Positions 6,715 to 64,000 of a DNA stretch of 64,000 nucleotides are shown here, one piece after another. The notes below the pieces were generated by a model. It was not told the origin of the DNA. It was given only the letters and a program-made list of their open reading frames with translations, and ran no database searches. The stretch is from assembly GCF_047511655.1 (NCBI RefSeq), contig NC_133394.1, forward strand, positions 55,646,501 through 55,710,500. Direction: 5' to 3'. The stretch's first letter is position 1, and each line of letters begins with the position of its first letter. The DNA is from Castor canadensis (Eukaryota > Chordata > Mammalia > Rodentia > Castoridae). The translations under genes were made by a program, and so were the position numbers.

Positions 6715-6797
6715 ACGTCTGGTGGGGAAACTGCTGTGGAAGCCCTTGCTGGAGCTGGCTGCCCACTTCCAGCCGCGTCTAGTGAGCGGACCTCGCG

Positions 6798-41400: not shown

Positions 41401-41519
41401 GAAAAATCTCAGGGTACAGTCCTGGGCTCATGGGACATATGTTCTGTTTTCCTGAAAGATTCCAAATAGATGCAAGAAATCCTTACACATGAATAGGTAA
41501 ATGAAGGGTCTAAGAAAAG

Positions 41520-43495
41520 TTGACTTTTGCTCATCCTAACTGGACTGTTTAAGAACAATTGGGTTCTATAAATTTAGTTTCCTTAATCAACTCATATTTT
41601 CATGGAGAAAATATATAATTTCTTTGGTCATGTACACAACATGAATTATTACATCAACTAAGATACATCACAAAACACCCAGCTAAATCTCAAGATATAT
41701 CAGAAAGTACCAGTCTCCACAGTTACTTTGCCTAGTGTCATTTCTCACTGAATCACATAACATACAGCTTTGTATGAATGGGCAGAGCATTCTCAATTTT
41801 CACATTGAATCAAAATGCAAAATAATTTTGGTAATTATACACATAATAGAAAAAACAAGATTGAACAAAATTCAACCTACATAGTTACATGCACAGTAAG
41901 CCAACATTTACATGTTGACAGAGGAACATCCTCAAAGTTTTAAGACACTGTCTACTTTCTTCTGTCTTGTCCTTTTGAATTGCTTAGGGTATAAATACAC
42001 ATGTAAAGAGGGCATATGGCAAAAGGATATTTATTCAAAGAGTGATAAAAAACTAACTTTGAATAGGTACATATTTTCTTTTCAAATTCTGATTGCCTCA
42101 AACCTTCAAAACTTCAGAAATGTAGGGCCTTGCCTCACTACAGAAGATATGGAAGAAATGTGAAGGGAAGATCATTTGTTACTGTATGTTATTTTTTAAA
42201 AATTGACTGTCCTTGATAGAGAAAAGCAATTCATGATGTAAAGATTTATCTGAATAAGGTCATGGTAAAAGTTGAAAAGTGTTAGATATATGGATCATGT
42301 GTATTACTTCCTACAAACAATCCAAAAAGAAGCAAGAATCCCTCACAGAATCAAGAGGTAATTGATGTGTAAAATGCAGCCTCGGATAATCAAAAGAGAT
42401 TTCTTTTTACCTTTGATTCAGGTCAGCAAAATTATTCCCATGCACCCAAGAGTGATAAGGAAATTAATGGAATAACCAGTGTATTTGAAGGAGAACTGTA
42501 TTAGAAAGTGCTCTGCATGTGAATTATCCAACTGATTTGTCTCCACAGATTTCATGAGTGTAGATGAGTCGGGTGGAAATGACATGGGAACTTAGCAAGA
42601 ATCTTCATTGTCCAATGCACTATGTGATCTTTGCATTCCAAGCAAGCAATGAATATATGATATTTTTCTCCTTATTTGTTGATTCCCTGGTTTTTTTTTC
42701 TTTTTACATGTGTTTTAGGTAAGCCTCAACAGGGAGTGCACAAGATGCTCAGGCTGTAACATAGGTGTTTTCTTTCTTTTTAAAAAGTTTTTTATTATTC
42801 ATTTATTCACATGTGTGTACATTGTTTGGGTCACTTCTCTCCCCTGCCCCCCTCTCCCCCCCCTCCTCTTCATGTCCAGGCAGAAACTGCTCTGCACTGA
42901 TCTTTAAATATGTTGAAGATACAACATAAGCATAATAAGGAAGACAAAGTGGTTTTGCTAATTGAGTTAAGGAAAGCTATACAGAAAGATCCCTACCATT
43001 CCTTTCATGAACAAATGTGTTATTCCAAGTTGATACATCTCTAAATAATCTTTACACTGGTTGCTGATCCCCTTCTCATGTTAACTTCTGTCACTTTAAG
43101 GTTTCTGTATTAGTTCCTCTGGAGTGGGGATATGAAACACTTTCATGTATTGGGATTTATACCTATTCCCATATCTTGTGTAGGTGATTTCCCCTAGTCA
43201 TGTGATTGAAGACCTAACACATTGCTGCATTTTCCCTAGATCTAAATATCTACAAGGTCCAATATGTGCATCCAGGCATACTAAGGTAGGATTGATAACA
43301 TCTTCACAATCACTTGAATCTATATTTACATTGTTAAATTTTACTACACATACGGGATGAATATCTGAAAGAAAATGAAATGAGCATCATGGAAATCAAT
43401 GCTAAACAGAACTCAGTGGTATCCACATCTTCAAACACCCTCCAAAGTCCAACCCAGGAGGAAAAAGAGCCCCTTGATGAGCAAACCAGAATGAC
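41520..43495 (+). repeat. Diverged left-edge copy of the 2.34-kb unit
   Basis: From about 41520 the sequence aligns in order with the array unit at 44330-45690. Examples: 41900-41945 with 44670-44720 ('ttgacagaggaa'), 42177-42210 with 44953-44985 ('tttgtt', 'ttattttt'), 42420-42445 with 45204-45230 ('aggtca', 'aaaattatt'), and 42605-42680 with 45405-45490 ('ttctccttatttg'). Similarity is clear but far lower than among array units. An L1 piece interrupts it at about 42775-43255. A further fragment at about 41330-41460 also resembles 44955-45080, implying a still older partial copy. Confidence 0.65.
42775..43255 (-). mobile_element. LINE-1 3' end inserted in the diverged unit
   Basis: 'tttttattattcatttattc', 'gtgtgtacattgtttgggtc', a C-rich block, then 'gtggttttgctaattgagtt' parallel the L1 pieces at 24815 and 32165. 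Unit-like sequence stops before and resumes after it. No array unit carries it. Confidence 0.7.
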
Positions 43496-43500
43496 AGAAT
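43347..43500 (+). pseudogene. Diverged copy of the array's candidate terminal exon
   Basis: The frame from 43348 encodes DEYLKENEMSIMEINAKQ through SSNTLQ to EEKEPLDE. It aligns without gaps over 42 codons with the array exon (EGYPKVNENV through CTSSTR to EEKESLDE), with 15 identical residues. The acceptor AG is lost (ACG in its place). One base is missing just after 43480, giving a TGA at about 43493-43495 in a frame that is otherwise open. Confidence 0.55.
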
Positions 43501-44235
43501 GACAGGACCTTCACCAGAAGGCAAGCATGAGAGCATTCCTTCCATTGACCTGTCTCTGATCACGTCTATATTTCTATCAAGAAAGACACAGCTCTTCTCC
43601 ATGCAGCAGGGATGTGTGCTAAAGGCTGCATCCCTACCCTCACCCAGAATCAGACTAAGAATCATGTCTAAAATCTGAAGAAGGCCCAGACCCTTTCTAA
43701 AAGAAGCTTTATATTCCTTTTCATTCCTCTCGGGAAACACGTGCTCTGTCCTCTATGTGCCCAGAGTACTTTCCATACATAGTTTTCTGTGCACCTGTCT
43801 GGGTGTCTCCCTGGCTTAAGGTTTCTAGAGTTGAGGTCTCACCTGTCCTCCCAAATGTGGGCATTCCCGGGGAAACTGTTGACAGAGCAGGAAAGGATCA
43901 ACTGACTGCATGACTTAGATGCGTGTAAAATGGAGGTTCTTGACTAAAGAGCTATGGTATGAGTTGGAATCTATCCTCAGGCCACAGTGACCTTGGGCTT
44001 CTGACCTTCATTAACTGCATATTGCAGCACATGGTAAATTTTCTTCCCACATCCCTTTCAAACCTTGATCTGGGCTAGATCCCGAACTGCGCATTCACTG
44101 TCAGGAGTGTCGTAAGCTTACCTTTTGCCACTTTTTGCCTCCTGGAAATGGCCCTCAGTGATTTGCTGATTACTTTGGATGTTTGGGAGTAGAAGGGAAT
44201 TTCTGATGAAAATATTGTGTAAGGGGCTGAGGGTC

Positions 44236-44241
44236 AATAAA
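44236..44241 (+). terminator. Canonical AATAAA in each unit
   Basis: AATAAA within 'gggtcaataaagac' is invariant in all nine copies (starts 44236, 46579, 48922, 51267, 53610, 55954, 58299, 60642, 62985). It lies about 650 bases after the stop of the candidate terminal exon, and is followed by a T-rich stretch. This fits a polyadenylation signal, unproven. Confidence 0.45.
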
Positions 44242-44412
44242 GACAAGTGTAAAATTGATGAATTTAATTTTCACAGCCTGAGTTTGAGCACTGAGACCTG
44301 CAAACCCAAATTGATCCAGGAAGTGTAGCAGAGGGTTTCTTCCCATTTAGCTGCTCTCTCCCCTCATCTTGCCAAGGCAAAACCATACAGTTTCGTCTAT
44401 CACAATGACAAC

Positions 44413-44676
44413 ATGTACTCTCAAATCCAGGAACATACACCAAAAACGGCCTTCCCTAAAGCTTTCGATATAGTTAGGAAATTACCAGAGCTCATGTCAA
44501 CTATCCTCATTCACAACCCTCTTCAAATTGAAGTGTATACAGGTTATGTCCAGGGCAGCCAGCATTCTTATATTCACATGGAAAAAATAGGGACTAATTG
44601 GGGCATTTTTACACAAAACAATAGCAGGGAAACAAATTTGTATACAATTGAACCTTCATGTTTACATGCACTTTAA
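44413..44676 (+). pseudogene. RhoGAP-like decayed stretch in the unit (repeated every 2.34 kb)
   Basis: An open stretch of 87 codons recurs at the same place in all nine units. Around KAFDIVRKLPELMSTI the DNA resembles the ARHGAP20 RhoGAP segment coding LLDQLPRANVVLL, and 'gaagtgtataca' and 'cagcattcttatattcacat' echo the following GVLHNIEQHSSSNQM codons, with frame breaks. I read it as a degraded RhoGAP exon; the ATG start is incidental. The alignment was done by hand against remembered protein sequence and is only suggestive. Confidence 0.35.
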
Positions 44677-44920
44677 GACAAACTCTCCATATTGACAGAG
44701 GAATATCTCAAGGTTTGAAGAAGTTGTCTAATGTCTTCTTTCTTCACCTCTTCAATTGCCTAAATGGAATGTGCAGGTAGATAAGGCACATTGCCTAAAG
44801 GATATGTGCTAAGAAGAATGGTAGAAATAATGTTTGAGTTAGGTGCAGATTTTCTTTTCATATTCTGTTTGCCTGTAGCCTTCATGCATTTAGAAAAGTA
44901 GTACCATGGCGCACAGAAGG

Positions 44921-44995
44921 GATGAAAATGAAAACTGTGAGGGGACGATCCTTTGTTGCTTTATATTATTTTAAAATTTACCCTATTCAGGAGAC
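44921..44995 (+). pseudogene. RhoGAP-start-like decayed stretch in the unit
   Basis: 'gatgaaaatgaaaactgtga' followed by 'ttgttgctttatattatttt' aligns with the exon at 41280-41400 ('aattctgggggaaagagctt', 'gttgttacatattactgttt') and with 42150-42210. It keeps the order of the ICEND-to-LFFLN segment of ARHGAP20 but no frame. It recurs at equivalent positions in later units (for example about 47264, 49608, 51951). Confidence 0.35.
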
Positions 44996-45690
44996 AATAG
45001 AGATCCATTACCTAATATTTAGCTGGAAAAACTCATAGTAGCGGCCTAAAATTGTCAGGTATATGGGACCTATCTCTTGTTTCCGGGAAAGATTCCAACA
45101 ACAAGTACGCATTCCAAATGGAAAAATCAAGTGGTAGATGACCTGTCTCCATGACATGGGGTCTACCCCATTCAAACCGATTTCTTTTCCTTCAAAACAG
45201 AGGTCAGGAAAATTATTTCCATGAATCCCAGCATGCTAAGCACATTCATCTGAAAAGCAGTGGGCCTGAAGGTGATGTGTCTTAGAATGTGGTCTGTAAA
45301 CGAATTACATAAGTGATTATAAGCACTGATGCAAGTGGGTATACATGGCTCCTGGGTGGATATTAGAAGACCCGAGAAAGTCTCCAATGGGAACTGACCA
45401 AAAGCCATTGCTGTCCAATACACTAACAGATCTTTACATTCCATGCAGGAAAGAAACGTTTCAGACATTCTTTTTCTCCTTATTTGCTGAAGCACTGAAT
45501 TTTCCCACCTGTATACAGGGCACCTGCCAAAGGAGTTCTCATTATGTTCCAAGTGGAACATGGCCTTTCACCTACCAGAAGCTCCCGGGGAACCATGCAA
45601 ACACCACTTTGTGCACACAGTCATGGTCACTTGGGATTGATCACACCCCTCATGATCAGCCTAAATCTACACTTAATTTTGTTCCAATAG

Positions 45691-45929
45691 GTGAAGGGTA
45701 TCCAAAAGTAAATGAGAATGTTCATGTGGATGTCACCAATGCAGAGGAGGCAGTGGACTGCACATCTTCAACCAGGTTCCATGATTCAATCGAGGAGGAA
45801 AAGGAGTCCCTTGATGAGCCAAGCCAGGATGATGCAATGCCAGGACCTTCACCCGAAGGCAAGCATGAGAGCATTCCTTCCATTGACCTGTCTCTGATCA
45901 CGTCTATATTTCTATCAAGAAAATCATGA
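45691..45929 (+). CDS. Candidate terminal coding exon, unit 1
   Basis: Preceded by TTTTGTTCCAATAG, a reasonable acceptor. The frame encodes GEGYPKVNENVHVDVTNAEE, then an acidic serine-rich run (DSIEEEKESLDEPSQDD) and ends SIFLSRKS with TGA at 45927-45929. An AATAAA follows about 650 bases later, as expected of a last exon. Position and acidic-serine composition resemble the segment just after the RhoGAP domain of ARHGAP20/TAGAP proteins (GE-start, then D/S/E-rich), but this likeness is weak. The frame is open upstream to an ATG at 45345 (194 codons in all); I think that extension is intron. Expression is unknown. Confidence 0.4.
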
Positions 45930-48033
45930 CACATCTATTCTCCGTGCAGCAAGGATGGGTGCTCAAGGCTGCATCCCTACCCTCACCCAGAATCAGACTA
46001 AGAATCATGTCTAAAATCTGAAGAAGGCCCAGACCCTTTCTAAAAGAAGTTTTATGTTCCTTTTCATTCCTCTCGGGAAACACGTGCTGTGTCCTCTATG
46101 TGCCCAGAGTACTTTCCATACATAGTTTTCTGTGCACCTGTCTGGGTGTCTCCCTGGCTTAAGGTTTCTAGAGTTGAGGTCTCACCTGTCCTCCCAAATG
46201 TGGGCATTCCCGGGGAAATTGTTGACAGAGCAGGAAAGGATCAACTGACTGCATGACTTAAATGCGTGTAAAATGGAGGTTCTTGACTAAAGAGCTATGG
46301 TATGAGTTGGAATCTATCTTCAGGCCACAATGACCTTGGGCTTCTGACCTTCATTAACTGCATATTGCAGCACATGGTAAATTTTCTTCCCACATCCCTT
46401 TCAAACCTTGATCTGGGCTAGATCCCGAACTGCGCATTCACTGTCAGGAATGTCGGAGGCTTACCTTTTGCCACTTTTTGCCTCCTGGAAATGGCCCTCA
46501 GTGATTTGCTGATTACTTTGGATGTTTGTTAGTAGAAGGGAACGTCTGATGAAAATATTGTGTTAGGGGCTGAGGGTCAATAAAGACCAGTGTAAAATTG
46601 ATGAATTTAATTTTCACAGCCTGAGTTTGAGCATTGAGACCTGCAAACCCAAATTGATCCAGGCAGTTTAGCAGAGGGTTTCTTCCCATTTAGCTGCTCT
46701 CTCCCCTCATCTTGCCAAGGCAAAACCATACAGTTTCATCTATCACAATGACAACATGTACTCTCAAATCCAGGAACATGCACCAAAAACGGCCTTCCCT
46801 AAAGCTTTCAATATAGTTAGGAAATTACCAGAGCTCATGTCAACTATCCTCATTCACAACCCTCTTCAAATTCAAGTGTATACAGGTTATGTCCAGGGGA
46901 GCCAGCATTCTTATATTCACATGGAAAAAATAGGGACTAATTGGGGCATTTTTACACAAAACAATAGCAGGGAAACAAGTTTCTATACAATTGAACCTTC
47001 ATGTTTACCTGAACTTTAAGACAAACTCTCCATATTGACAGAGGAATATCTCAAGGTTTGAAGAAGTTGTCTAATGTCTTCTTTCTTCACCTCTTCAATT
47101 GCCTAAATGGAATGTGCAGGTAGATAAGGCACATTGCCTAAAGGATATGTGCTAAGAAGAATGGTAGAAATAATGTTTGAGTTAGGTGCAGATTTTCTTT
47201 TCATATTCTGTTTGCCTGTAGCCTTCATGCATTTAGAAAAGTAGTACCATGGCGCACAGAAGGGATGAAAATGAAAAATGTGAGGGGACGATCCTTTGTT
47301 GCTTTATATTATTTTAAAATTTACCCTATTCAGGAGACAATAGAGATCCATTACCTAATATTTAGCTGGAAAACCTCATAGTAGCGGCCTAAAATTGTCA
47401 GGTATATGGGACCTATCTCTTGTTTCCGGGAAGATTCCAACAACAAGTACGCATTCCAAATGGAAAAATCAAGTGGTAGATGACATGTCTTCATGACATA
47501 TGATCTGCCCCATTCAAAACCGATTTCTTTTCCTTCAAAAGAGAGGTCAGGAAAATTATTTCCATGAATCCCAGCATGCTAAGCACATTCATCTGAAAAG
47601 CAGTGGGCCTGAAGGTGATGTGTCTTAGAATGTGGTCTGTAAACGAATTACATAACTGATTATAAGCACTGATGCAAGTGGGAATACATGGCTCCTGGGT
47701 GGATATTAGAAGACCCGAGAAAGTCTCCAATGGGAACTGACCAAAAGCCATTGCTGTCCAACACACTAACAGATCTTTGCATTCCATGCCCTAAAGAAAC
47801 GTTTCAAACATTCTTTTTCTCCTTATTTGCTGAAGCTCTAAATTTTCCCACCTGTATACACGGCTCCTGCAAAGGGAGTTCTCATTATGTTCCAAGTGGA
47901 GCATGGCCTTTCACCTACCAGAAGCTCCCGGGGAACCATGCAAACACCACTTTGTGCACACAGTCATGGTCACTTGGGTTTGATCACACCCCTCATGATC
48001 AGCCTAAATCTACACTTAATTTTGTTCCAATAG
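45691..48033 (+). repeat. Array unit 1
   Basis: 2343 bases. Terminal-exon segment 45691-45929; AATAAA at 46579-46584; 87-codon open stretch 46756-47019 of type B (APKTAF, FNIV, QIQV, ending SFYTIEPSCLPEL). Confidence 0.93.
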
Positions 48034-48272
48034 GTGAAGGGTATCCAAAAGTAAATGAGAATGTTCATGTGGATGTCACCAATGCAGAGGAGGCAGTGGA
48101 CTGCACATCTTCAACCAGGTTCCATGATTCAATCGAGGAGGAAAAGGAGTCCCTTGATGAGCCAAGCCAGGATGATGCAATGCCAGGACCTTCACCCGAA
48201 GGCAAGCATGAGAGCATTCCTTCCATTGACCTATCTCTGATCACGTCTATATTTCTATCAAGAAAATCATGA
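48034..48272 (+). CDS. Candidate terminal coding exon, unit 2
   Basis: Intact acceptor (CCAATAG) and frame, protein identical to unit 1. Upstream open frame from 47688 has the CPKET and CKGSSHY variants in the presumed intron. Confidence 0.4.
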
Positions 48273-50378
48273 CACATCTATTCTCCGTGCAGCAAGGATG
48301 TGTGCTCAAGGCTGCATCCCTACCCTCACCCAGAATCAGACTAAGAATCATGTCTAAAATCTGAAGAAGGCCCAGACCCTTTCTAAAAGAAGTTTTATGT
48401 TCCTTTTCATTCCTCTCGGGAAACACGTGCTCTGTCCTCTATGTGCCCAGAGTACTTTCCATACATAGTTTTCTGTGCACCTGTCTGGGTGTCTCCCTGG
48501 CTTAAGGTTTCTAGAGTTGAGGTCTCACCTGTCCTCCAAAATGTAGGCATTCCCGGGGAAACTGTTGACAGAGCAGGAAAGGATCAACTGACTGCATGAC
48601 TTAGATGCGTGTAAAATGGAGGTTCTTGACTAAAGAGCTATGGTATGAGTTGGAATCTATCTTCAGGCCACAGTGACCTTGGGCTTCTGACCTTCATTAA
48701 CTGCATATTGCAGCACATGGTAAATTTTCTTCCCACATCCCTTTCAAACCTTGATCTGGGCTAGATCCCGAACTGCGCATTCACTGTCAGGAGTGTCGTA
48801 AGCTTACCTTTTGCCACTTTTTGCCTCCTGGAAATGGCCCTCAGTGATTTGCTGATTACTTTGGATGTTTGGGAGTAGAAGGGAACGTCTGATGAAAATA
48901 TTGTGTTAAGGGCTGAGGGTCAATAAAGACAAGTGTAAAATTGATGAATTTAATTTTCACAGCCTGAGTTTGAGCATTGAGACCTGCAAACCCAAATTGA
49001 TCCAGGCAGTTTAGCAGAGGGTTTCTTCCCATTTAGCTGCTCTCTCCCCTCATCTTGCCAAGGCAAAACCATACAGTTTCATCTATCACAATGACAACAT
49101 GTACTCTCAAATCCAGGAACATACACCAAAAACGGCCTTCCCTAAAGCTTTCGATATAGTTAGGAAATTACCAGAGCTCATGTCAACTATCCTCATTCAC
49201 AACCCTCTTCAAATTGAAGTGTATACAGGTTATGTCCAGGGCAGCCAGAATTCTTATGTTCACATGGAAAAAATAGGGACTAATTGGGGCATCTTTACAC
49301 AAAACAATAGCAGGGAAACAAATTTGTATACAATTGAACCTTCATGTTTACATGCACTTTAAGACAAACTCTCCATATTGACAGAGGAATATCTCAAGGT
49401 TTGCAGAAGCTGTGTAATGTCTTCTTTCTTCACCTCTTCAATTGCCTAAATGGAATGTGCAGATATATAAGGCACATTGTCTAAAGGATATGTGCTAAGA
49501 AGAATGGTAGAAATAATGTTTGAGTTAGGTGCAGATTTTCTTTTCATATTCTGTTTGCCTGTAGCCTTCATGCATTTAGAAAAGTAGTACCATGGCACAC
49601 AGAAGGGATGAAAATGAAAAAATGTGAGGGGACGATCCTTTGTTGCTTTATATTATTTTAAAATTTACCCTATTCAGGAGACAATAGAGATCCATTACCT
49701 AATATTTAGCTGGAAAACCTCATAGTAGCGGCCTAAAATTGTCAGGTATATGGGACCTATCTCTTCTTTCCAGGAAAGATTCCAACAACAAGTACGCATT
49801 CCAAATGGAAAAATCAAGTGGTAGATGACATGTCTCCATGACATGGGATCTGCCCCATTCAAAACCGATTTCTTTTCCTTCAAAAGAGAGGTCAGGAAAA
49901 TTATTTCCATGAATCCCAGCATGCTAAGCACATTCATCTGAAAAGCAGTGGGCCTGAAGGTGATGTGTCTTAGAATGTGGTCTGTAAACGAATTACATAA
50001 CTGATTATAAGCACTGATGCAAGTGGGAATACATGGCTCCTGGGTGGATATTAGAAGACCCGAGAAAGTCTCCAATGGGAACTGACCAAAAGCCATTGCT
50101 GTCCAATACACTAACAGATCTTTACATTCCATGCAGGAAAGAAACGTTTCAGACATTCTTTTTCTCCTTATTTGCTGAAGCCCTGAATTTTCCCACCTGT
50201 ATACACGGCTCCTGCCAAGGGAGTTCTCGTTATGTTCCAAGTGGAACATGGCCTTTCACGTACCAGAAGCTCCCGGGGAACCATGCAAACACCACTTTGT
50301 GCACACAGTCATGGTCACTTGGGATTGATCACACCCCTCATGATCAGCATAAATCTACACTTAATTTTGTTCCAATAC
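48034..50378 (+). repeat. Array unit 2
   Basis: 2345 bases. Terminal-exon segment 48034-48272; AATAAA at 48922-48927; 87-codon open stretch 49099-49362 of type C (QIEV, QNSYVHM, ending HAL). The stretch around 49850 reads 'gggatctgccccattcaaaa', a type-C marker shared with units 5 and 8. Confidence 0.93.
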
Positions 50379-50617
50379 GTGAAGGGTATCCAAAAGTAAA
50401 TGAGAATGTTCATGTGGATGTCACCAATGCAGAGGAGGCAGTGGACTCCACATCTTCAACCAGATTCCATGATTCAATCGAGGAGGAAAAGGAGTCCCTT
50501 GATGAGCCAAGCCAGGATGATGCAATGCCAGGACCTTCACCCGAAGGCAAGCATGAGAGCATTCCTTCCATTGACCTGTCTCTGATCACGTCTATATTTC
50601 TATCAAGAAAATCATGA
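50379..50617 (+). pseudogene. Candidate terminal exon, unit 3: acceptor lost
   Basis: Frame open to TGA, with a cysteine-to-serine change (VDSTSS) and a glycine-to-arginine change at the first codon. The base change creating that arginine also destroys the acceptor (AG to AC at 50377-50378). If the exon is ever spliced in, this unit should not contribute. Confidence 0.45.
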
Positions 50618-52960: not shown

Positions 52961-55065
52961 CACATCTATTCTCCATGCAGCAAGGATGCGTGCTCAAGGC
53001 TGCATCCCTACCCTCACCCAGAATCAGACTAAGAATCATGTCTAAAATCTGAAGAAGGCCCAGACCCTTTCTAAAAGAAGTTTTATGTTCCTTTTCATTC
53101 CTCTCGGGAAACACGTGCTCTGTCCTCTATGTGCCCAGAGTACTTTCCATACATAGTTTTCTGTGCACCTGTCTGGGTGTCTCCCTGGCTTAAGGTTTCT
53201 AGAGTTGAGGTCTCACCTGTCCTCCCAAATGTGGGCATTCCCGGGGAAACTGTTGACAGAGCAGGAAAGGATCAACTGACTGCATGACTTAGATGCGTGT
53301 AAAATGGAGGTTCTTGACTAAAGAGCTATGGTATGAGTTGGAATCTATCTTCAGGCCACAATGACCTTGGGCTTCTGACCTTCATTAACTGCATATTGCA
53401 GCACATGGTAAATTTTCTTCCCACATCCCTTTCAAACCTTGATCTGGGCTAGATCCCGAACTGCGCATTCACTGTCAGGAGTGTCGTAAGCTTACCTTTT
53501 GCCACTTTTTGCCTCCTGGAAATGGCCCTCAGTGATTTACTGATTACTTTGGATGTTTGGGAGTAGAAGGGAACTTCTGATGAAAATATTGTGTTAGGGG
53601 CTGAGGGTCAATAAAGACAAGTGTAAAATTGATGAATTTAATTTTTACAGCCTGAGTTTGAGCATTGAGACCTGCAAACCCAAATTGATCCATGCAGTTT
53701 AGCAGAGGGTTTCTTCCCATTTAGCTGCTCTCTGCCCTCATCTTGCCAAGGCAAAACCATACAGTTTCATCTATCACAATGACAACATGTACTTTCAAAT
53801 CCAGGAACATACACCAAAAACGGCCTTCCCTAAAGCTTTCGATATAGTTAGGAAATTACCAGAGCTCATGTCAACTATCCTCATTCACAACCCTCTTCAA
53901 ATTGAAGTGTATACAGGTTATGTCCAGGGCAGCCAGCATTCTTGTATTCACATGGAAAAAATAGGGACTAATTGGGGAATTTTTACAAAAAACAATAGCA
54001 GGGAAACAAATTTGTATACAATTGAACCTTCATGTTTACATGCACTTTAAGACAAACTCTCCATATTGACAGAGGAATATCTCAAGGTTTGCAGAAGCTG
54101 TGTAATGTCTTCTTTCTTCACCTCTTCAATTGCCTAAATGGAATGTGCAGATATATAAGGCACATTGCCTAAAGGATATGTGCTAAGAAGAATGGTAGAA
54201 ATAATGTTTGAGTTAGGTGCAGATTTTCTTTTCATATTCTGTTTGCCTGTAGCCTTCATGCATTTAGAAAAGTAGTACCATGGCACACAGAAGGGATGAA
54301 AATGAAAAAATGTGAGGGGACGATCCTTTGTTGCTTTATATTATTTTTAAATTTACCCTATTCAGGAGACAATAGAGATCCATTACCTAATATTTAGCTG
54401 GAAAACCTCATAGTAGCGGCCTAAAATTGTCAGGTATATGGGACCTATCTCTTCTTTCCTGGAAAGATTCCAACAACAAGTACGCATTCCAAATGGAAAA
54501 ATCAAGTGGTAGATGACCTGTCTCCATGACATGGGGTCTACCCCATTCAAACCGATTTCTTTTCCTTCAAAACAGAGGTCAGGAAAATTATTTCCATGAA
54601 TTCCAGCATGCTAAGCACATTCATCTGAAAAGCAGTGGGCCTGAAGGTGATGTGTCTTAGAATGTGTTCTATAAACGAATTACATAAGTGATTATAAGCA
54701 CTGATGCAAGTGGGTATACATGGCTCCTGGGTGGATATTAGAAGACCCGAGAAAGTCTCCAATGGGAACTGACCAAAAGCCATTGCTGTCCAATACACTA
54801 ACAGATCTTTACATTCCATGCAGGAAAGAAACGTTTCAGACATTCTTTTTCTCCTTATTTCCTGAAGCCCTGAATTTTCCCACCTGTATACAGGGCTCCT
54901 GCCAAGGGAGTTCTCGTTATGTTCCAAGTGGAACATGGCCTTTCACGTACCAGAAGCTCCCGGGGAACCATGCAAACACCACTTTGTGCACACAGTCATG
55001 GTCACTCGGGATTGATCACACCACTCATGATCAGCCTAAATCTACACTTAATTTTGTTCCAATAG
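52722..55065 (+). repeat. Array unit 4
   Basis: 2344 bases. Terminal-exon segment 52722-52960; AATAAA at 53610-53615; 87-codon open stretch 53787-54050, variant of type A (MYFQIQ, QHSCIHM, TKNNS). Confidence 0.93.
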
Positions 55066-55304
55066 GTGAAGGGTATCCAAAAGTAAATGAGAATGTTCAT
55101 GTGGAAGTCACCAATGCAGAGGAGACAGTGGACTGCACATCTTCAACCAGGTTCCATGATTCAATCGAGGAGGAAAAGGAGTCCCTTGATGAGCCAAGCC
55201 AGGATGATGCAATGCCAGGACCTTCACCCGAAGGCAAGCATGAGAGCATTCCTTCCATTGACCTGTCTCTGATCACGTCTATATTTCTATCAAGAATATC
55301 ATGA
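55066..55304 (+). CDS. Candidate terminal coding exon, unit 5
   Basis: Acceptor and frame intact. Differs from unit 1 by D-to-E (VHVEVTN), A-to-T (EETVD) and K-to-I in the last but one residue (SRIS). Units 5 and 8 share the last two changes. Confidence 0.4.
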
Positions 55305-57410
55305 CACATCTATTCTCCGTGCAGCAAGGATGTGTGCTCAAGGCTGCATCCCTACCCTCACCCAGAATCAGACTAAGAATCATGTCTAAAATCTGAAGAA
55401 GGCCCAGACCCTTTCTAAAAGAAGTTTTATGTTCCTTTTCATTCCTCTCGGGAAACACGTGCTCTGTCCTCTATGTGCCCAGAGTACTTTCCATACATAG
55501 TTTTCTGTGCACCTGTCTGGGTGTCTCCCTGGCTTAAGATTTCTAGAGTTGAGGTCTCACCTGTCCTCCCAAATGTGGGCATTCCCGGGGAAACTGTTGA
55601 CAGAGCAGGAAAGGATCAACTGACTGCATGACTTAGATGCGTGTAAAATGGAGGTTCTTGACTAAAGAGCTATGGTATGAGTTGGAATCTATCCTCAGGC
55701 CACAGTGACCTTGGGCTTCTGACCTTCATTAACTGCATATTGCAGCACATGGTAAATTTTCTTCCCACATCCCTTTCAAACCTTGATCTGGGCTAGATCC
55801 CGAAGTGCGCATTCACTGTCAGGAATGTCGTAACCTTACCTTTTGCCACTTTTTGCCTCCTGGAAATGGCCCTCAGTGATTTGCTGATTACTTTGGATGT
55901 TTGTTAGTAGAAGGGAACTTCTGATGAAAATATTGTGTTAGGGGCTGAGGGTCAATAAAGACAAGTGTAAAATTGATGAATTTAATTTTCACAGCCTGAG
56001 TTTGAGCATTGAGACCTGCAAACCCAAATTGATCCAGGCAGTTTAGCAGAGGGTTTCTTCCCATTTAGCTGCTCTCTCCCCTCATCTTGCCAAGGCAAAA
56101 CCATACAGTTTCATCTATCACAATGACAACATGTACTCTCAAATCCAGGAACATACACCAAAAACGGCCTTCCCTAAAGCTTTCGATATAGTTAGGAAAT
56201 TACCAGAGCTCATGTCAACTATCCTCATTCACAACCCTCTTCAAATTGAAGTGTATACAGGTTATGTCCAGGGCAGCCAGAATTCTTATGTTCACATGGA
56301 AAAAATAGGGACTAATTGGGGCATCTTTACACAAAACAATAGCAGGGAAACAAATTTGTATACAATTGAACCTTCATGTTTACATGCACTTTAAGACAAA
56401 CTCTCCATATTGACAGAGGAATATCTCAAGGTTTGCAGAAGCTGTGTAATGTCTTCTTTCTTCACCTCTTCAATTGCCTAAATGGAATGTGCAGATATAT
56501 AAGGCACATTGTCTAAAGAATATGTGCTAAGAAGAATGGTAGAAATAATGTTTGAGTTAGGTGCAGATTTTCTTTTCATATTCTGTTTGCCTGTAGCCTT
56601 CATGCATTTAGAAAAGTAGTACCATGGCACACAGAAGGGATGAAAATGAAAAAATGTGAGGGGACGATCCTTTGTTGCTTTATATTATTTTAAAATTTAC
56701 CCTATTCAGGAGACAATAGAGATCCATTACCTAATATTTAGCTGGAAAACCTCATAGTAGCGGCCTAAAATTGTCAGGTATATGGGACCTATCTCTTCTT
56801 TCCAGGAAAGATTCCAACAACAAGTACGCATTCCAAATGGAAAAATCAAGTGGTAGATGACATGTCTCCATGACATGGGATCTGCCCCATTCAAAACCGA
56901 TTTCTTTTCCTTCAAAAGAGAGGTCAGGAAAATTATTTCCATGAATCCCAGCATGCTAAGCACATTCATCTGAAAAGCAGTGGGCCTGAAGGTGATGTGT
57001 CTTAGAATGTGGTCTGTAAACGAATTACATAACTGATTATAAGCACTGATGCAAGTGGGAATACATGGCTCCTGGGTGGATACTAGAAGACCCAAGAAAG
57101 TCTCCAATGGGAACTGACCAAAAGCCATTGCTGTCCAACACACTAACAGATCTTTACATTCCATGCAGGAAAGAAACGTTTCAGACATTCTTTTTCTCCT
57201 TATTTCCTGAAGCCCTGAATTTTCCCACCTGTATACATGGCTCCTGCAAAGGGAGTTCTCATTATGTTCCAAGTGGAGCATGGCCTTTCACCTACCAGAA
57301 GCTCCCGGGGAACCATGCAAACACCACTTTGTGCACACAGTCATGGTCACTTGGGATTGATCACACCCGTCATGACCAGCCTAAATCTACACTTAATTTT
57401 GTTCCAATAG
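55066..57410 (+). repeat. Array unit 5
   Basis: 2345 bases. Terminal-exon segment 55066-55304 (ETVD, ending SRIS); AATAAA at 55954-55959; 87-codon open stretch 56131-56394 of type C (QNSYVHM). It shares 'cccgaagtgcgcattc' (55799-55814) only with unit 8. Confidence 0.93.
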
Positions 57411-57649
57411 GTGAAGGGTATCCAAAAGTAAATGAGAATGTTCATGTGGATGTCACCAATGCAGAGGAGGCAGTGGACTGCACATCTTCAACCAGGTTCC
57501 ATGATTCAATCGAGGAGGAAAAGGAGTCCCTTGATGAGCCAAGCCAGGATGATGCAATGCCAGGACCTTCACCCGAAGGCAAGCATGAGAGCATTCCTTC
57601 CATTGACCTGTCTCTGATCACGTCTATATTTCTATCAAGAAAATCATGA
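57411..57649 (+). CDS. Candidate terminal coding exon, unit 6
   Basis: Acceptor and frame intact; protein identical to unit 1 in the exon part. The presumed intron part carries HTRHD instead of HTPHD. Confidence 0.4.
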
Positions 57650-59753
57650 CACATCTATTCTCCGTGCAGCAAGGATGTGTGCTCAAGGCTGCATCCCTAC
57701 CCTCACCCAGAATCAGACTAAGAATCATGTCTAAAATCTGAAGAAGGCCCAGACCCTTTCTAAAAGAAGTTTTATGTTCCTTTTCATTCCTCTCGGGAAA
57801 CACGTGCTCTGTCCTCTATGTGCCCAGAGTACTTTCCATACATAGTTTTCTGTGCACCTGTCTGGGTGTCTCCCTGGCTTAAGGTTTCTAGAGTTGAGGT
57901 CTCACCTGTCCTCCCAAATGTGGGCATTCCCGGGGAAACTGTTGACAGAGCAGGAAAGGATCAACTGACTGCATGACTTAGATGCGTGTAAAATGGAGGT
58001 TCTTGACTAAAGAGCTATGGTATGAGTTGGAATCTATCTTCAGGCCACAATGACCTTGGGCTTCTGACCTTCATTAACTGCATATTGCAGCACATGGTAA
58101 ATTTTCTTCCCACATCCCTTTCAAACCTTGATCTGGGCTAGATCCCGAACTGCGCATTCACTGTCAGGAATGTCGTAAGCTTACCTTTTTCCACTTTTTG
58201 CCTCCTGGAAATGGCCCTCATTGATTTGCTGATTACTTTGGATGTTTGTTAGTAGAAGGGAACTTCTGATGAAAATATTGTGTTAGGGGCTGAGGGTCAA
58301 TAAAGACCAGTGTAAAATTGATGAATTTAATTTTCACAGCCTGAGTTTGAGCATTGAGACCTGCAAACCCAAATTGATCCAGGCAGTGTAGCAGAGGGTT
58401 TCTTGCCATTTAGCTGCTCTCTCCCCTCATCTTGCCAAGGCAAAACCATACAGTTTCATCTATCACAATGACAACATGTACTCTCAAATCCAGGAACATA
58501 CACCAAAAACGGCCTTCCCTAAAGCTTTCAATATAGTTAGGAAATTACCAGAGCTCATGTCAACTATCCTCATTCACAACCCTCTTCAAATTCAAGTGTA
58601 TACAGGTTATGTCCAGGGGAGCCAGCAGTCTTATATTCACATGGAAAAAATAGGGACTAATTGGGGCATTTTTACACAAAACAATAGCAGGGAAACAAAT
58701 TTGTATACAATTGAACCTTCATGTTTACATGCACTTTAAGACAAACTCTCCATATTGACAGAGGAATATCTCAAGGTTTGAAGAAGTTGTCTAATGTCTT
58801 CTTTCTTCACCTCTTCAATTGCGTAAATGGAATGTGCAGGTAGATAAGGCACATTGCCTAAAGGATATGTGCTAAGAAGAATGGTGGAAATAATGTTTGA
58901 GTTAGGTGCAGATTTTCTTTTCATATTCTGTTTGCCTGTAGAATTCATGCATTTAGAAAAGTAGTACCATGGCGCACAGAAGGGAGGAAAATGAAAAATG
59001 TGAGGGGACGATCCTTTGTTGCTTTATATTATTTTAAAATTAACCCTATTCAGGAGACAATAGAGATCCATTACCTAATATTTAGCTGGAAAACCTCATA
59101 GTAGCGGCCTAAAATTGTCAGGTATATGGGACCTATCTCTTGTTTCCGGGAAAGATTCCAACAACAAGTACGCATTCCAAATGGAAAAATCAAGTGGTAG
59201 ATGACCTGTCTCCATGACATGGGGTCTACCCCATTCAAACCGATTTCTTTTCCTTCAAAAGAGAGGTCAGGAAAATTATTTCCATGAGTCCCAGCATGCT
59301 AAGCACATTCATCTGAAAAGCAGTGGGCCTGAAGGTGATGTGTCTTAGAATGTGGTCGGTAAACGAATTACATAAGTGATTATAAGCACTGATGCAAGTG
59401 GGTATACATGGCTCCTGGGTGGATATTAGAAGACCCGAGAAAGTCTCCAATGGGAACTGACCAAAAGCCATTGCTGTCCAATACACTAACAGATCTTTAC
59501 ATTCCATGCAGGAAAGAAACGTTTCAGACATTCTTTTTCTCCTTATTTGCTGAAGCCCTGAATTTTCCCACCTGTATACACGGCTCCTGCCAAGGGAGTT
59601 CTCGTTATGTTCCAAGTGGAACATGGCCTTTCACGTACCAGAAGCTCCCGGGGAACCATGCAAACACCACTTTGTGCACACAGTCATGGTCACTTGGGAT
59701 TGATCACACCCCTCATGATCAGCATAAATCTACACTTAATTTTGTTCCAATCC
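57411..59753 (+). repeat. Array unit 6
   Basis: 2343 bases. Terminal-exon segment 57411-57649; AATAAA at 58299-58304; 87-codon open stretch 58476-58739 that is a hybrid: type B at its start (FNIV, QIQV) and type A at its end (NLYTIEPSCLHAL). Confidence 0.93.
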
Positions 59754-59992
59754 GTGAAGGGTATCCAAAAGTAAATGAGAATGTTCATGTGGATGTCACC
59801 AATGCAGAGGAGGCAGTGGACTCCACATCTTCAACCAGGTTCCATGATTCAATCGAGGAGGAAAAGGAGTCCCTTGATGAGCCAAGCCAGGATGATGCAA
59901 TTCCAGGACCTTCACCCGAAGGCAAGCATGAGAGCATTCCTTCCATTGACCTGTCTCTGATCACGTCTATATTTCTATCAAGAAAATCATGA
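59754..59992 (+). pseudogene. Candidate terminal exon, unit 7: acceptor lost
   Basis: Frame open to TGA with the VDSTSS change of unit 3 and an M-to-I change (DDAIPG). The acceptor reads CCAATCC, losing AG as in unit 3 but with an additional substitution, which suggests common descent of these two copies. Confidence 0.45.
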
Positions 59993-62097
59993 CACATCTA
60001 TTCTCCGTGCAGCAAGGATGTGTGCTCAAGGCTGCATCCCTACCCTCACCCAGAATCAGACTAAGAATCATGTCTAAAATCTGAAGAAGGCCCAGACCCT
60101 TTCTAAAAGAAGTTTTATGTTCCTTTTCATTCCTCTCGGGAAACACGTGCTCTGTCCTCTATGTGCCCAGAGTACTTTCCATACATAGTTTTCTGTGCAC
60201 CTGTCTGGGTGTCTCCCTGGCTTAAGATTTCTAGAGTTGAGGTCTCACCTGTCCTCCCAAATGTGGGCATTCCCGGGGAAACTGTTGACAGAGCAGGAAA
60301 GGATCAACTGACTGCATGACTTAGATGCGTGTAAAATGGAGGTTCTTGACTAAAGAGCTATGGTATGAGTTGGAATCTATCCTCAGGCCACAGTGACCTT
60401 GGGCTTCTGACCTTCATTAACTGCATATTGCAGCACATGGTAAATTTTCTTCCCACATCCCTTTCAAACCTTGATCTGGGCTAGATCCCGAACTGCGCAT
60501 TCACTGTCAGGAATGTCGTAAGCTTACCTTTTGCCACTTTTTGCCTCCTGGAAATGGCCCTCAGTGATTTTCTGATTACTTTGGATGTTTGGGAGTAGAA
60601 GGGAACGTCTGATGAAAATATTGTGTTAGGGGCTGAGGGTCAATAAAGACAAGTGTAAAATTGATGAATTTAATTTTCACAGCCTGAGTTTGAGCATTGA
60701 GACCTGCAAACCCAAATTGATCCAGGCAGTGTAGCAGAGGGTTTCTTGCCATTTAGCTGCTCTCTCCCCTCATCTTGCCAAGGCAAAACCATACAGTTTC
60801 ATCTATCACAATGACAACATGTACTCTCAAATCCAGGAACATACACCAAAAACGGCCTTCCCTAAAGCTTTCGATATAGTTAGGAAATTACCAGAGCTCA
60901 TGTCAACTATCCTCATTCACAACCCTCTTCAAATTGAAGTGTATACAGGTTATGTCCAGGGCAGCCAGCATTCTTATATTCACATGGAAAAAATAGGGAC
61001 TAATTGGGGCATTTTTACACAAAACAATAGCAGGGAAACAAATTTGTATACAATTGAACCTTCATGTTTACATGCACTTTAAGACAAACTCTCCATATTG
61101 ACAGAGGAATATCTCAAGGTTTGCAGAAGCTGTGTAATGTCTTCTTTCTTCACCTCTTCAATTGCCTAAATGGAATGTGCAGATATATAAGGCACATTGC
61201 CTAAAGGATATGTGCTAAGAAGAATGGTAGAAATAATGTTTGAGTTAGGTGCAGATTTTCTTTTCATATTCTGTTTGCCTGTAGCCTTCATGCATTTAGA
61301 AAAGTAGTACCATGGCACACAGAAGGGATGAAAATGAAAAAATGTGAGGGGATGATCCTTTGTTGCTTTATATTATTTTAAAATTTACCCTATTCAGGAG
61401 ACAATAGAGATCCATTACCTAATATTTAGCTGGAAAACCTCATAGTAGCGGCCTAAAATTGTCAGGTATATGGGACCTATCTCTTCTTTCCTGGAAAGAT
61501 TCCAACAACAAGTACGCATTCCAAATGGAAAAATCAAGTGGTAGATGACCTGTCTCCATGACATGGGGTCTACCCCATTCAAACCGATTTCTTTTCCTTC
61601 AAAAGAGAGGTCAGGAAAATTATTTCCATGAATTCCAGCATGCTAAGCACATTCATCTGAAAAGCAGTGGGCCTGAAGGTGATGTGTCTTAGAATGTGGT
61701 CTATAAACGAATTACATAAGTGATTATAAGCACTGATGCAAGTGGGTATACATGGCTCCTGGGTGGATATTAGAAGACCCGAGAAAGTCTCCAATGGGAA
61801 CTGACCAAAAGCCATTGCTGTCCAATACACTAACAGATCTTTACATTCCATGCAGGAAAGAAACGTTTCAGACATTCTTTTTCTCCTTATTTCCTGAAGC
61901 CCTGAATTTTCCCACCTGTATACATGGCTCCTGCCAAGGGAGTTCTCGTTATGTTCCAAGTGGAACATGGCCTTTCACGTACCAGAAGCTCCCGGGGAAC
62001 CATGCAAACACCACTTTGTGCACACAGTCATGGTCACTAGGGATTGATCACACCACTCATGATCAGCCTAAATCTACACTTAATTTTGTTCCAATAG
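59754..62097 (+). repeat. Array unit 7
   Basis: 2344 bases. Terminal-exon segment 59754-59992 with the acceptor changed to CCAATCC; AATAAA at 60642-60647; 87-codon open stretch 60819-61082 of type A. Confidence 0.93.
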
Positions 62098-62336
62098 GTG
62101 AAGGGTATCCAAAAGTAAATGAGAATGTTCATGTGGATGTCACCAATGCAGAGGAGACAGTGGACTGCACATCTTCAACCATTTTCCATGATTCATCGAG
62201 GAGGAAAAGGAGTCCCTTGATGAGCCAAGCCAGGATGATGCAATGCCAGGACCTTCACCCGAAGGCAAGCATGAGAGCATTCCTTCCTTTGACCTGTCTC
62301 TGATCACGTCTATATTTCTATCAAGAATATCATGAC
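62098..62336 (+). pseudogene. Candidate terminal exon, unit 8: frameshifted
   Basis: Acceptor CCAATAG is kept. One A is missing in 'gattcatcgaggag' (near 62195, 'gattcaatcgaggag' elsewhere), so the acidic tail is replaced by a basic one (SSRRKRSP) ending at TGA 62301-62303. Nearby R-to-I change (STIFHD). Confidence 0.5.
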
Positions 62337-64000
62337 ACATCTATTCTCCGTGCAGCAAGGATGTGTGCTCAAGGCTGCATCCCTACCCTCACCCAGAATC
62401 AGACTAAGAATCATGTCTAAAATCTGAAGAAGGCCCAGACCCTTTCTAAAAGAAGTTTTATGTTCCTTTTCATTCCTCTCGGGAAACACGTGCTCTGTCC
62501 TCTATGTGCCCAGAGTACTTTCCATACATAGTTTTCTGTGCACCTGTCTGGGTGTCTCCCTGGCTTAAGATTTCTAGAGTTGAGGTCTCACCTGTCCTCC
62601 CAAATGTGGGCATTCCCGGGGAAACTGTTGACAGAGCAGGAAAGGATCAACTGACTGCATGACTTAGATGCGTGTAAAATGGAGGTTCTTGACTAAAGAG
62701 CTATGGTATGAGTTGGAATCTATCCTCAGGCCACAGTGACCTTGGGCTTCTGACCTTCATTAACTGCATATTGCAGCACATGGTAAATTTTCTTCCCACA
62801 TCCCTTTCAAACCTTGATCTGGGCTAGATCCCGAAGTGCGCATTCACTGTCAGGAATGTCGTAAGCTTACCTTTTGCCACTTTTTGCCTCCTGGAAATGG
62901 CCCTCAGTCATTTGCTGATTACTTTGGATGTTTGTTAGTAGAAGGGAACTTCTGATGAAAATATTGTGTTAGGGGCTGAGGGTCAATAAAGACAAGTGTA
63001 AAATTGATGAATTTAATTTTCACAGCCTGAGTTTGAGCATTGAGACCTGCAAACCCAAATTGATCCAGGCAGTTTAGCAGAGGGTTTCTTCCCATTTAGC
63101 TGCTCTCTCCCCTCATCTTGCCAAGGCAAAACCATACAGTTTCATCTATCACAATGACAACATGTACTCTCAAATCCAGGAACATACACCAAAAACGGCC
63201 TTCCCTAAAGCTTTCGATATAGTTAGGAAATTACCAGAGCTCATGTCAACTATCCTCATTCACAACCCTCTTCAAATTGAAGTGTATACAGGTTATGTCC
63301 AGGGCAGCCAGAATTCTTATGTTCACATGGAAAAAATAGGGACTAATTGGGGCATCTTTACACAAAACAATAGCAGGGAAACAAATTTGTATACAATTGA
63401 ACCTTCATGTTTACATGCACTTTAAGACAAACTCTCCATATTGACAGAGGAATATCTCAAGGTTTGCAGAAGCTGTGTAATGTCTTCTTTCTTCACCTCT
63501 TCAATTGCCTAAATGGAATGTGCAGATATATAAGGCACATTGTCTAAAGGATATGTGCTAAGAAGAATGGTAGAAATAATGTTTGAGTTAGGTGCAGATT
63601 TTCTTTTCATATTCTGTTTGCCTGTAGCCTTCATGCATTTAGAAAAGTAGTACCATGGCACACAGAAGGGATGAAAATGAAAAAATGTGAGGGGACGATC
63701 CTTTGTTGCTTTATATTATTTTAAAATTTACCCTATTCAGGAGACAATAGAGATCCATTACCTAATATTTAGCTGGAAAACCTCATAGTAGCGGCCTAAA
63801 ATTGTCAGGTATATGGGACCTATCTCTTCTTTCCAGGAAAGATTCCAACAACAAGTACGCATTCCAAATGGAAAAATCAAGTGGTAGATGACATGTCTCC
63901 ATGACATGGGATCTGCCCCATTCAAAACCGATTTCTTTTCCTTCAAAAGAGAGGTCAGGAAAATTATTTCCATGAATCCCAGCATGCTAAGCACATTCAT
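62098..64000 (+). repeat. Array unit 8 (cut by the window edge)
   Basis: 1903 bases visible. Terminal-exon segment from 62098 with a one-base deletion near 62195; AATAAA at 62985-62990; 87-codon open stretch 63162-63425 of type C. Same variant combination as unit 5. Confidence 0.93.

Follow-up and report, generated by a model that had tools for sequence, protein, structure and literature searches.

A macrosatellite within an ARHGAP20-like gene of the beaver, probably built from an internal coding exon

The 64,000-nucleotide stretch of Castor canadensis DNA analysed here (the window) ends in a tandem array that is probably a repeat able to lengthen a protein and not plain junk. Judging from the sequence, we consider it reasonably probable that this array is an intragenic macrosatellite of a coding exon, which would be spliced and translated. 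This reading builds on the array itself, on its origin in a gene, on the retention of frame and splice sites between diverged monomers, on its recurrence at sister loci and on two gene models from NCBI with joined repeat exons.

Layout and extent of the array

The array is real. It starts at position 43522 on the + strand, and 8.7 head-to-tail units of ~2.343 kb, with 97-99% identity to unit 2, reach the window edge (43522..64000). A sequence-only reading had described such an array of near-identical 2.34-kb units running off the edge, which holds, and had placed its start at 43495, which has to be moved to 43522. With a longest period of 500, TRF did not make the array visible. When 200 kb of 3' sequence were added, the array was found to end at extended coordinate ~117564, ~53.6 kb beyond the window edge. 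As a whole it thus measures ~74 kb, consisting of 31 full units and one partial unit, i.e. ~32 copies as read from one assembled haplotype.

Because near-identical large arrays assemble poorly and the copy number comes from a single haplotype, a collapsed or inflated repeat was considered. However, the units can be told apart (pairwise identity among units 1-30 of 96.9-100%, mean 98.3%), the edge copies decay as in real satellites (down to 90.6% and 83% identity, followed by 64-70% remnants up to extended coordinate 121265), and an independent metagenome ORF (P0015, 25 members), whose contig is no longer than 2,493 bp, carries the unit exon. We regard an assembly artefact as extremely unlikely.

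The host gene and its broken GAP domain

The array was said to lie 3' of a same-strand PH-RA gene of the ARHGAP20 family, and PH and RA exons are indeed found upstream on the + strand. Host exons were searched with human ARHGAP20 sequence as query. PH exon 1 (22209..22372, RHG20_PH 37.9 bits) has a GT donor, its 5' border not being fixed. From PH exon 2 to RA exon 3 all borders were read, each exon showing an AG acceptor and a GT donor: PH exon 2 (27093..27230, RHG20_PH 35.1 bits), PH exon 3 (29592..29633), RA exon 1 (30266..30344), RA exon 2 (35207..35284) and RA exon 3 (37448..37514). PH exon 3, RA exon 1 and RA exon 3 were located by tblastn with this query, and the residues of RA exon 2 are identical in the NCBI models P0001 and P0003. 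The last RA-domain exon (39602..39769, + strand) is 168 nt long and symmetric in phase, with an AG acceptor and a GC donor (AAG/GCAAGC); it occurs at 22 places genome-wide and is homologous to the array exon. All host exons from PH exon 1 to this fourth RA exon have open frames, and those of their splice sites that were read are usable. Joined, they match the RHG20-type PH domain PF22286 (99 bits, cut-off 27.7) and the RA domain PF00788 (25 bits, cut-off 21). The beaver host gene thus has the PH and RA domains and the exon layout in common with ARHGAP20 (PH-RA-RhoGAP).

It differs from ARHGAP20 by a broken GAP domain. RhoGAP exon 1 persists as a shortened, frameshifted remnant at 41137..41282 (+ strand), which ends at an internal GT donor, a splice used by model P0001. 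The broken exon noted earlier at 41137 is confirmed: with 146 nt against 141 nt it is 5 nt longer than its counterpart in the paralogue on C13, and its inclusion at the window locus breaks the reading frame. The remnant sits within a diverged first copy (40167-43519) and is gone from the other copies. RhoGAP exon 2 lies 17 kb past the array (extended coordinate 134656-134805) and contains an in-frame TAA that the window locus and C13 have in common. In the case of RhoGAP exons 3-5, human ARHGAP20 pieces gave chance-level matches only in 264 kb. Therefore, the host can be described as a GAP-less paralogue. The array is placed inside the gene, between the RhoGAP exon 1 remnant and RhoGAP exon 2.

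The repeat unit as a copy of an internal exon

Each array unit consists of a 168-nt phase-symmetric exon (unit positions 61-228) and an intron. The exon keeps its 168 nt and symmetry in 28 of the 30 complete copies. In the window, + strand copies with AG acceptor and open frame lie at 45691..45858, 48034..48201, 52722..52889, 55066..55233 and 57411..57578. The copies at 50379..50546 and 59754..59921 are also open, with AC and CC at the acceptor position, respectively, and the copy at 62098..62264 has an AG acceptor with 167 nt and a frameshift. Just 5' of the array, a diverged copy of the exon (m0, 43354..43520, + strand) reads as 167 nt with AC at the acceptor and a stop; its counterpart in the C13 paralogue is open.

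By way of a monomer at C9:32.35, the array exon can be aligned to the last RA exon with 66.5% DNA identity over 242 bp (E=2e-8), and both have the same phase. By this homology the unit is a duplicated internal, frame-neutral exon with its intron, a diverged copy of the RA exon at 39602-39769, which is the likely source of the array exon. An origin of the satellite in the adjoining same-strand ARHGAP20-like gene had been proposed beforehand, and it is borne out by this homology and by the listed unit matches, nearly all of which lie beside exons of the family. The proposal that the unit represents the 3' end of the gene fails, being excluded by the homology to an internal exon and by RhoGAP exon 2 beyond the array. 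RhoGAP similarity of the unit was not recovered either: ARHGAP20 tblastn hits stayed at chance level (E of 1.9 or worse) and a profile search of three open pieces gave no match, which rejects the unit as a carrier of RhoGAP exons. Nor did the unit exon find a match in the PDB.

Related to this is the idea of alternative terminal exons, in which each unit would bring its own acceptor and last coding exon, together with a stop and a poly(A) signal. Without use of its donor, the unit exon continues in frame to GKHESIPSIDLSLITSIFLSRKS and then a stop, and an AATAAA is present in unit 2. Similar read-through occurs in gene models: in isoform P0004 the RA exon runs past its donor up to a stop, and in P0002 the last repeat exon runs past its own donor and closes the model. 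An open exon-like stretch with an AG acceptor is present in 20 of the 30 complete copies; however, a GC or GT donor directly follows every repeat exon read, so that the exon stands as a candidate coding exon but not as a last one. Likewise, the AATAAA claimed for each unit exists in unit 2 but is missing at that place in five other covering monomers, and in two of the five open monomers the read-through tail is just 3 residues long. Given the absent signal at the equivalent place and the short tails, the terminal-exon reading was rejected, and we consider it quite improbable. The monomer r1 carries two AATAAA motifs at other places.

Retention of frame and splice sites

The preferred reading, a macrosatellite of an internal coding exon, was followed across diverged monomers. 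When 168-nt segments were moved along the unit, 8 of 2175 (starts 48-69) were open and frame-kept in all four of the types u1, C32_1, HOR_A and HOR_B, and none on the minus strand; upon adding monomer r1, zero segments were open in all five types. Among these five monomers (~35% divergent), pairwise indels number 0 in the exon and 440 elsewhere, with 34 expected in the exon by length, although the events are not independent. Because the five monomers were taken by DNA homology, this comparison is freer of a choice for open copies.

In a neutral-tree simulation of 21 monomer types, 8 of which came from a tblastn list whose ranking favours open copies, the level of 18 open exons out of 21 was reached in 7 of 5000 runs with substitutions alone and in 0 of 5000 with intron-like frameshifts. 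Near-duplicates (u30, C13_a, C13_r1 and three C9:37 copies) were left out of this set, C13_r1 being broken like r1; C7_1, whose 5' half is replaced, was also omitted. A test with nine exons gave P=6/20000 for exons that had been picked as open. In all 10 pairs, the 60 nt 5' and the 172 nt 3' of the exon were less divergent than the intron. The conserved stretch reaches ~170 nt into the intron, beyond what a donor requires.

Large tandem arrays of other macrosatellites can be heterochromatic or a source of small RNA. A comparable non-coding role as antisense or small-RNA source or chromatin element, to which the exon would be irrelevant, is nevertheless very improbable here. The only open stretch with kept frame in the four monomer types is the exon, on the sense strand alone, and an Rfam scan of 38000-50600 found no family, by which a known RNA gene in that interval was also rejected.

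The amino acids behave differently from the frame. For the repeat exon pN/pS is 0.92 (bootstrap 0.74-1.18), compared to 0.48 for the RA exon, and a second estimate gave a mean pS of 0.329 and pN of 0.322. Substitution rates are about equal in exon (0.336) and intron (0.354). Within the array, variation (S/n) is likewise 0.083 in the exon and 0.081 in the intron, the exon changes being 10 replacements, 6 silent and 0 stops. Altogether, the exon keeps its length and frame between monomers while its amino acids drift almost neutrally, an unusual split in which frame and splice sites are kept and the amino acids are almost free.

Sister loci, gene models and the state of the window copy

The array exon is also found at at least nine other places in the beaver genome. 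The 61 unit matches listed (38 of 843 candidates scored) fall on C7, C9 and C13 only, three chromosomes. As far as these scored matches and the Rfam scan of 38000-50600 reach, neither of the two outcomes named in advance as speaking against a gene origin was seen (no similarity of the unit to ARHGAP20 genes, or a match to a known satellite or ERV family genome-wide). The window locus, C13, C7, C151 and C9:32, 37, 51.65, 58.5 and 60.5 each have the last RA exon upstream in the same orientation; the matches listed include none next to the C9:60.93-61.10 and C114 arrays. Monomers measure 2.34-2.37 kb and dimers 4.7 kb. At C9:51.8, a 300-nt stretch is found again 2373 bp further on with 69% identity and 4738 bp further on with 100%, and among the matches listed a spacing of ~4.72-4.73 kb appears at C9:58.5, 60.1-61.1 and C114. 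The 4.7-kb two-exon higher-order repeats alone hold ~600 junction-conserved exon copies (exon A 305, exon B 299, controls 0) over an estimated 1.4 Mb. The C13 paralogue has ~2.5 units against ~32 at the window locus.

Two NCBI Castor models include repeat exons: P0001 splices PH-RA-GAP1 remnant-m0-a-b, with a frameshifted third repeat exon, and P0002 contains A-B-A-B-A. Among the best 7,990 word-sharing candidates scored, no repeat-bearing protein of 633-2012 aa was found, the five matches all being turtle ARHGAP20. Among the literature titles listed, none fitted on rodent ARHGAP20 tandem copies, rho GTPase-activating protein 20-like, or duplicated ARHGAP20 paralogues and the RA domain, and no paper was found on C. 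canadensis satellite DNA. In the portion of the beaver genome paper available to us, ARHGAP20 is absent from the main text and satellites are mentioned once, in a table line (PMC5295618).

The window's own gene copy looks partly decayed. Besides the frameshifted GAP remnant, the AG acceptor is lost in 10 of the 30 complete array copies and two are frameshifted, with 19 usable; the NCBI model of the locus (P0003) begins only in PH exon 2, ends at the GAP1 remnant and is repeat-free. This copy may be relaxed or dying. These features, together with the pN/pS of about 0.9, the equal variation of exon and intron within the array and the RhoGAP exon 2 stop common to the window locus and C13, also fit an inert satellite with a coding past. 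There, the frame would be retained between monomer types because a few tandem copies were once translated, and the large arrays would be later neutral, now unspliced amplifications, the one in the window being no more than a dead by-product of a gene in decay. Against this, the repeat exons read at sister loci keep splice sites and open frames, the junctions are conserved as counted above, all 150 repeat exon matches scored were without a stop (692 candidates; tblastn, ranking favouring open copies), and NCBI models join repeat exons at two loci. We hold the inert satellite to be a less probable, though serious, explanation.

Discussion

We propose that in an ancestor of the beaver family of genes the last RA-domain exon, 168 nt with equal end phases, was duplicated in tandem together with its intron, and that the copies came to lie 3' of the RhoGAP exon 1 remnant. 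A frame-neutral exon of this kind could be spliced in or skipped in any copy number with the message intact. Unequal exchange would then have altered copy number separately in each paralogue, leading to ~32 monomers here and to 4.7-kb dimers at sister loci. The predicted product would be a PH-RA protein without GAP domain, with an acidic tail of 56-residue repeats of variable length; mRNAs would be made and translated, and tail length may matter. Set against the roles suggested beforehand (alternative terminal exons, antisense or small RNA, an inert by-product), the evidence fits best with exons of the family that are internal and used alternatively or repeatedly, with a partly decayed copy in the window.

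In a bolder form, which we put forward tentatively and hold to be rather doubtful, beaver PH-RA proteins would carry tens to more than 100 tandem 56-residue acidic repeats, encoded in exon macrosatellites as long as ~280 kb and differing in length between paralogues and probably individuals. Selection would act on the length of the tail and not on its content, the exon being kept splicable and open while its sequence is free.

To our knowledge, coding macrosatellites with intragenic higher-order repeats are few. The best-known cases, LPA and NBPF, come from work on humans and are prominent in medicine or evolution. The beaver would add a second, independent family from a rodent, and with it a comparative test of repeat origin and of selection on length versus content. 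From the sequence, the beaver array reads as an intragenic coding macrosatellite that resembles LPA KIV-2 or NBPF/Olduvai and belongs to a new gene family.

In the case of LPA, the sections of the source at hand describe the kringle IV-2 VNTR of apolipoprotein(a) as protein-coding and polymorphic, with 1 to ~40 units of 5.6 kb (up to >200 kb) and two exons per unit encoding a kringle domain (PMC11462820). As far as those sections go, the beaver array is alike in its kb-scale intragenic tandem unit with short coding exons and long introns, in its highly homologous units and in its tens of copies, and its exon is frame-neutral in the large majority noted above (28/30). The beaver monomer differs in having one 56-residue, putatively expressed exon with nearly unconstrained amino acids.

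In the case of NBPF/Olduvai, the available part of the source describes one family on one chromosome, in which coding monomers of ~1.6 kb have been amplified in several paralogues, the higher-order repeats measuring ~4.77 kb (PMC9584774). To that extent, higher-order repeats in several paralogous genes are common to both systems, with 2.34-2.37-kb monomers and 4.7-kb dimers in beaver. A Pfam scan of the beaver repeats gave no Olduvai/NBPF match, and the beaver system differs in its ARHGAP20-like gene, its occurrence in a rodent, its dimer instead of a trimer and its single exon per monomer instead of two.

Extent and internal structure of the array

The window covers C9:55646501-55710500. A BLAST search of it with unit 2 (45860-48200) traced consecutive head-to-tail copies, starting at 43522 and filling the rest of the window. 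Using 200 kb more downstream sequence from the same chromosome, the array end was placed at ~117564 in extended coordinates (window numbering continued downstream), giving 31 full units and one partial one. Units 1-30 are 2338-2345 bp long with a mean identity of 98.3% (96.9-100%), confirming the near-identical ~2.34-kb tandem units that a sequence-only reading had described as running off the window edge. The final two copies drop to 90.6% and 83% and are followed by 64-70% remnants up to 121265; such loss of identity in edge copies is typical of satellite margins. Units 5-8 and units 11-14 are 99.6-100% identical, and therefore a block of ~14 kb was duplicated within the array.

Two other repeats were seen in the window. 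A dispersed repeat is present three times (24798-25235, 32161-32585 and 42788-43170, 69-75% alike), its third copy directly preceding the array, and the GC-rich stretch 6632-8493 holds low-copy internal direct repeats, e.g. 6898-7245 and 8066-8410 (81%).

The host gene

Upstream of the array, on the same strand, lie seven ARHGAP20-like exons, all open: PH1-3 and RA1-4. Joined, they score 99 bits to RHG20_PH and 25 bits to RA in Pfam; exons and scores together bear out the proposed position of the array downstream of PH and RA exons of a gene of ARHGAP20 type. Where read, their splice sites are AG acceptors and GT donors, except for the last RA exon (39602-39769), which has a GC donor. Of the 11 family members read, 10 share this GC donor (GCAAGC in nine, GCAAAC in C19) and C7 has ACAAGC; the 10 include C19 and C9:67.6, loci without a repeat exon among the listed matches.

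Along the strand, the order is PH1-3, RA1-4, a truncated RhoGAP exon 1 (GAP1 remnant, 41137..41282), array and RhoGAP exon 2. The remnant at 41137 carries 5 extra nt relative to the C13 paralogue, and exon 2, at extended coordinate 134656, has an in-frame TAA in common with C13. Because exon 2 sits past the array, the array lies within the gene and the unit exon is internal, so the suggested origin from the 3' end of the gene does not hold. A search of 264 kb with human ARHGAP20 sequence gave no convincing match to any later GAP exon. Broken remnant, TAA and the unmatched later exons together point to a host gene that has lost its GAP domain.

Nature of the unit

The reading had also aligned parts of the unit to RhoGAP exons and placed a last coding exon in each. 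Neither survives: ARHGAP20 gave only chance-level matches to the unit (E 1.9 or worse), three open pieces had no Pfam match above cut-off, and the candidate exon, 168 nt long (first complete copy 45691-45858), ends at a GC or GT donor, with the gene continuing beyond. This exon had no PDB match.

Instead, the unit exon is homologous to the last RA exon (66.5% over 242 bp, E=2e-8, via a monomer at C9:32.35), starts in the same codon phase and has the same length of 168 nt. In alignments from many loci, both classes keep 168 nt with one exception, a C7 repeat exon (C7_2) of 129 nt, in frame. The next matching intron block lies 565 bp from the start of the RA exon and 557 bp from that of the unit exon. 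Unit sequence also matches the flanks of the GAP1 remnant (40167-40230, 41786-42682 and 43337-43519); this stretch is therefore a diverged first copy enclosing the remnant, GAP1 having, we infer, been dropped from the remaining copies. Based on this homology, length and phase, intron spacing and the matches around the remnant, the unit is a tandem duplicate of a frame-neutral internal exon with its intron.

Sister loci and higher-order repeats

Genome-wide, 22 places carry the last RA exon. Downstream of it and in its orientation, repeat-exon arrays or short runs are present at C9:32.35-32.38, 37.34-37.31, 51.66-51.84, 58.54-58.81 and 60.5-60.1 (Mb), and likewise at C13:122.05-122.04 and C7:81.465-81.461. 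Contig C151 holds both RA exon and repeats; C9:60.93-61.10 and the short contig C114 carry arrays without a listed RA exon alongside, and an isolated repeat stretch at C9:52.83 lies 0.35 Mb from the closest family exon.

Higher-order repeats of 4.7 kb with two exons, A and B, were found at C9:51.66-51.84, 58.54-58.81 and 60.08-61.10 Mb and on C114; together they are estimated to make up ~1.4 Mb of the assembly. The 4737-bp period at C9:51.8 corresponds to a dimer: of the further copies of a 300-nt stretch, the one 2373 bp away is 69% identical and the one 4738 bp away 100%. Pattern counts of the exon junctions (at most 2 mismatches) gave 305 for A and 299 for B genome-wide, and 0 for reversed controls; among the first 100 exon-A places listed, 39 fall in 51.66-51.84 and 58 in 58.54-58.81. 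All 150 scored exon matches, from 692 candidates in a ranking biased to open copies, were stop-free.

The flanks of the C13 locus match those of the window locus at 97.6-98.7% in four stretches and at 94.7% next to the array; it is a recent copy of the window locus. Its array has only about 2.5 units, and a large change in copy number must therefore have occurred since the split.

RhoGAP exon 1 is itself tandem at C9:32289144-32347905 (at least 10 copies) and C9:37347350-37432173 (at least 14), with ~6.51-kb spacing, no stop in the listed copies and an adjoining repeat-exon array; the two loci look like inverted duplicates of each other. Separately, a JGI metagenome protein (P0015; 25 members, longest contig 2,493 bp, about one unit) comprises the window's array exon with intronic flanks and is probably beaver host DNA.

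Conservation of frame and content

Five full monomers were compared (u1, r1, C32_1, HOR_A and HOR_B), with an intron divergence of ~35%. Pairwise indel events numbered 0 in the exon and 440 elsewhere; by length, 34 would be expected in the exon, and the events are not independent. In the four monomers other than r1, 8 of 2175 168-nt windows were open and frame-kept, all coinciding with the exon, and 0 on the minus strand; on adding r1, a monomer that carries a stop and has lost its acceptor, no window was open in all five. On a tree of 21 exon types, 8 of them taken from a tblastn ranking that favours open copies, 18 were open, a number reached in 7 of 5000 neutral simulations with substitutions alone and in 0 of 5000 with intron-like frameshifts. 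Excluded from these types were near-duplicates (u30, C13_a, C13_r1, which is broken like r1, and three C9:37 copies) and C7_1, whose 5' half is replaced.

The 60 nt before and 172 nt after the exon are less diverged than the intron in all ten monomer pairs. The ~170 nt directly 3' (e.g. 45859-46030) are the best-conserved part of the unit between monomers, exceeding what a splice donor needs.

The pN/pS of the repeat exon was 0.92 (0.74-1.18) versus 0.48 for the RA exon, a separate estimate being similar. Across 11 repeat types, the only invariant residues are L41, E43, P51 and G52, and the repeats are acidic as judged by eye. As frame and openness are retained at such a pN/pS, we read this as selection that would oppose breakage of the message, with little selection on the amino-acid content of the repeat.

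State of the window's copy and gene models

Among the 30 complete exon copies of the window array, AC or CC replaces the AG acceptor in 10 and two are frameshifted (one also with an AC acceptor); 19 combine AG acceptor and open 168-nt frame. Segregating-site density (S/n) is 0.083 in the exon versus 0.081 in the rest, pi is 0.012 versus 0.017, and the exon changes comprise 10 replacement, 6 silent and 0 stop. With the GAP1 remnant included, the repeats of this gene would be unreadable in frame; skipping it would be permitted by phase. Given the lost acceptors, equal variation and frame-breaking remnant, the window array is probably a relaxed family member, other members being better coding candidates.

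Four NCBI proteins, all predicted gene models, come from the family. P0003 models the window's gene, beginning in PH exon 2, finishing in the frameshifted GAP1 remnant and free of repeats; in P0004 (isoform X2) the RA-exon donor is read through to a stop. P0001, the C13 copy by residue match, runs PH-RA-last RA exon-GAP1 remnant-m0-a-b (m0 being a diverged pre-array exon copy, a and b C13 repeat exons) and ends in a frameshift in b; its remnant contributes 141 nt, spliced at an internal GT donor. P0002, from contig C151 (32 kb), has the order PH(partial)-RA-GAP1 remnant-A-B-A-B-A and finishes in a read-through tail. A protein search over the best 7,990 candidates by shared words gave no longer repeat proteins, its five matches all being turtle ARHGAP20.

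Comparison with known systems

Altogether, the array is a real internal-exon macrosatellite; there is good evidence that it is coding in origin, and it is moderately likely, on sequence grounds, to be in coding use at some loci. No published account of this beaver exon macrosatellite was found in searches of the literature on ARHGAP20 tandem copies or paralogues and on Castor canadensis satellite DNA. The beaver repeats have no Pfam match to either KIV-2 kringle or NBPF/Olduvai. The higher-order repeats of NBPF/Olduvai (PMC9584774) resemble the beaver sister loci, and the system that the beaver array would work most like is the LPA KIV-2 VNTR (PMC11462820).
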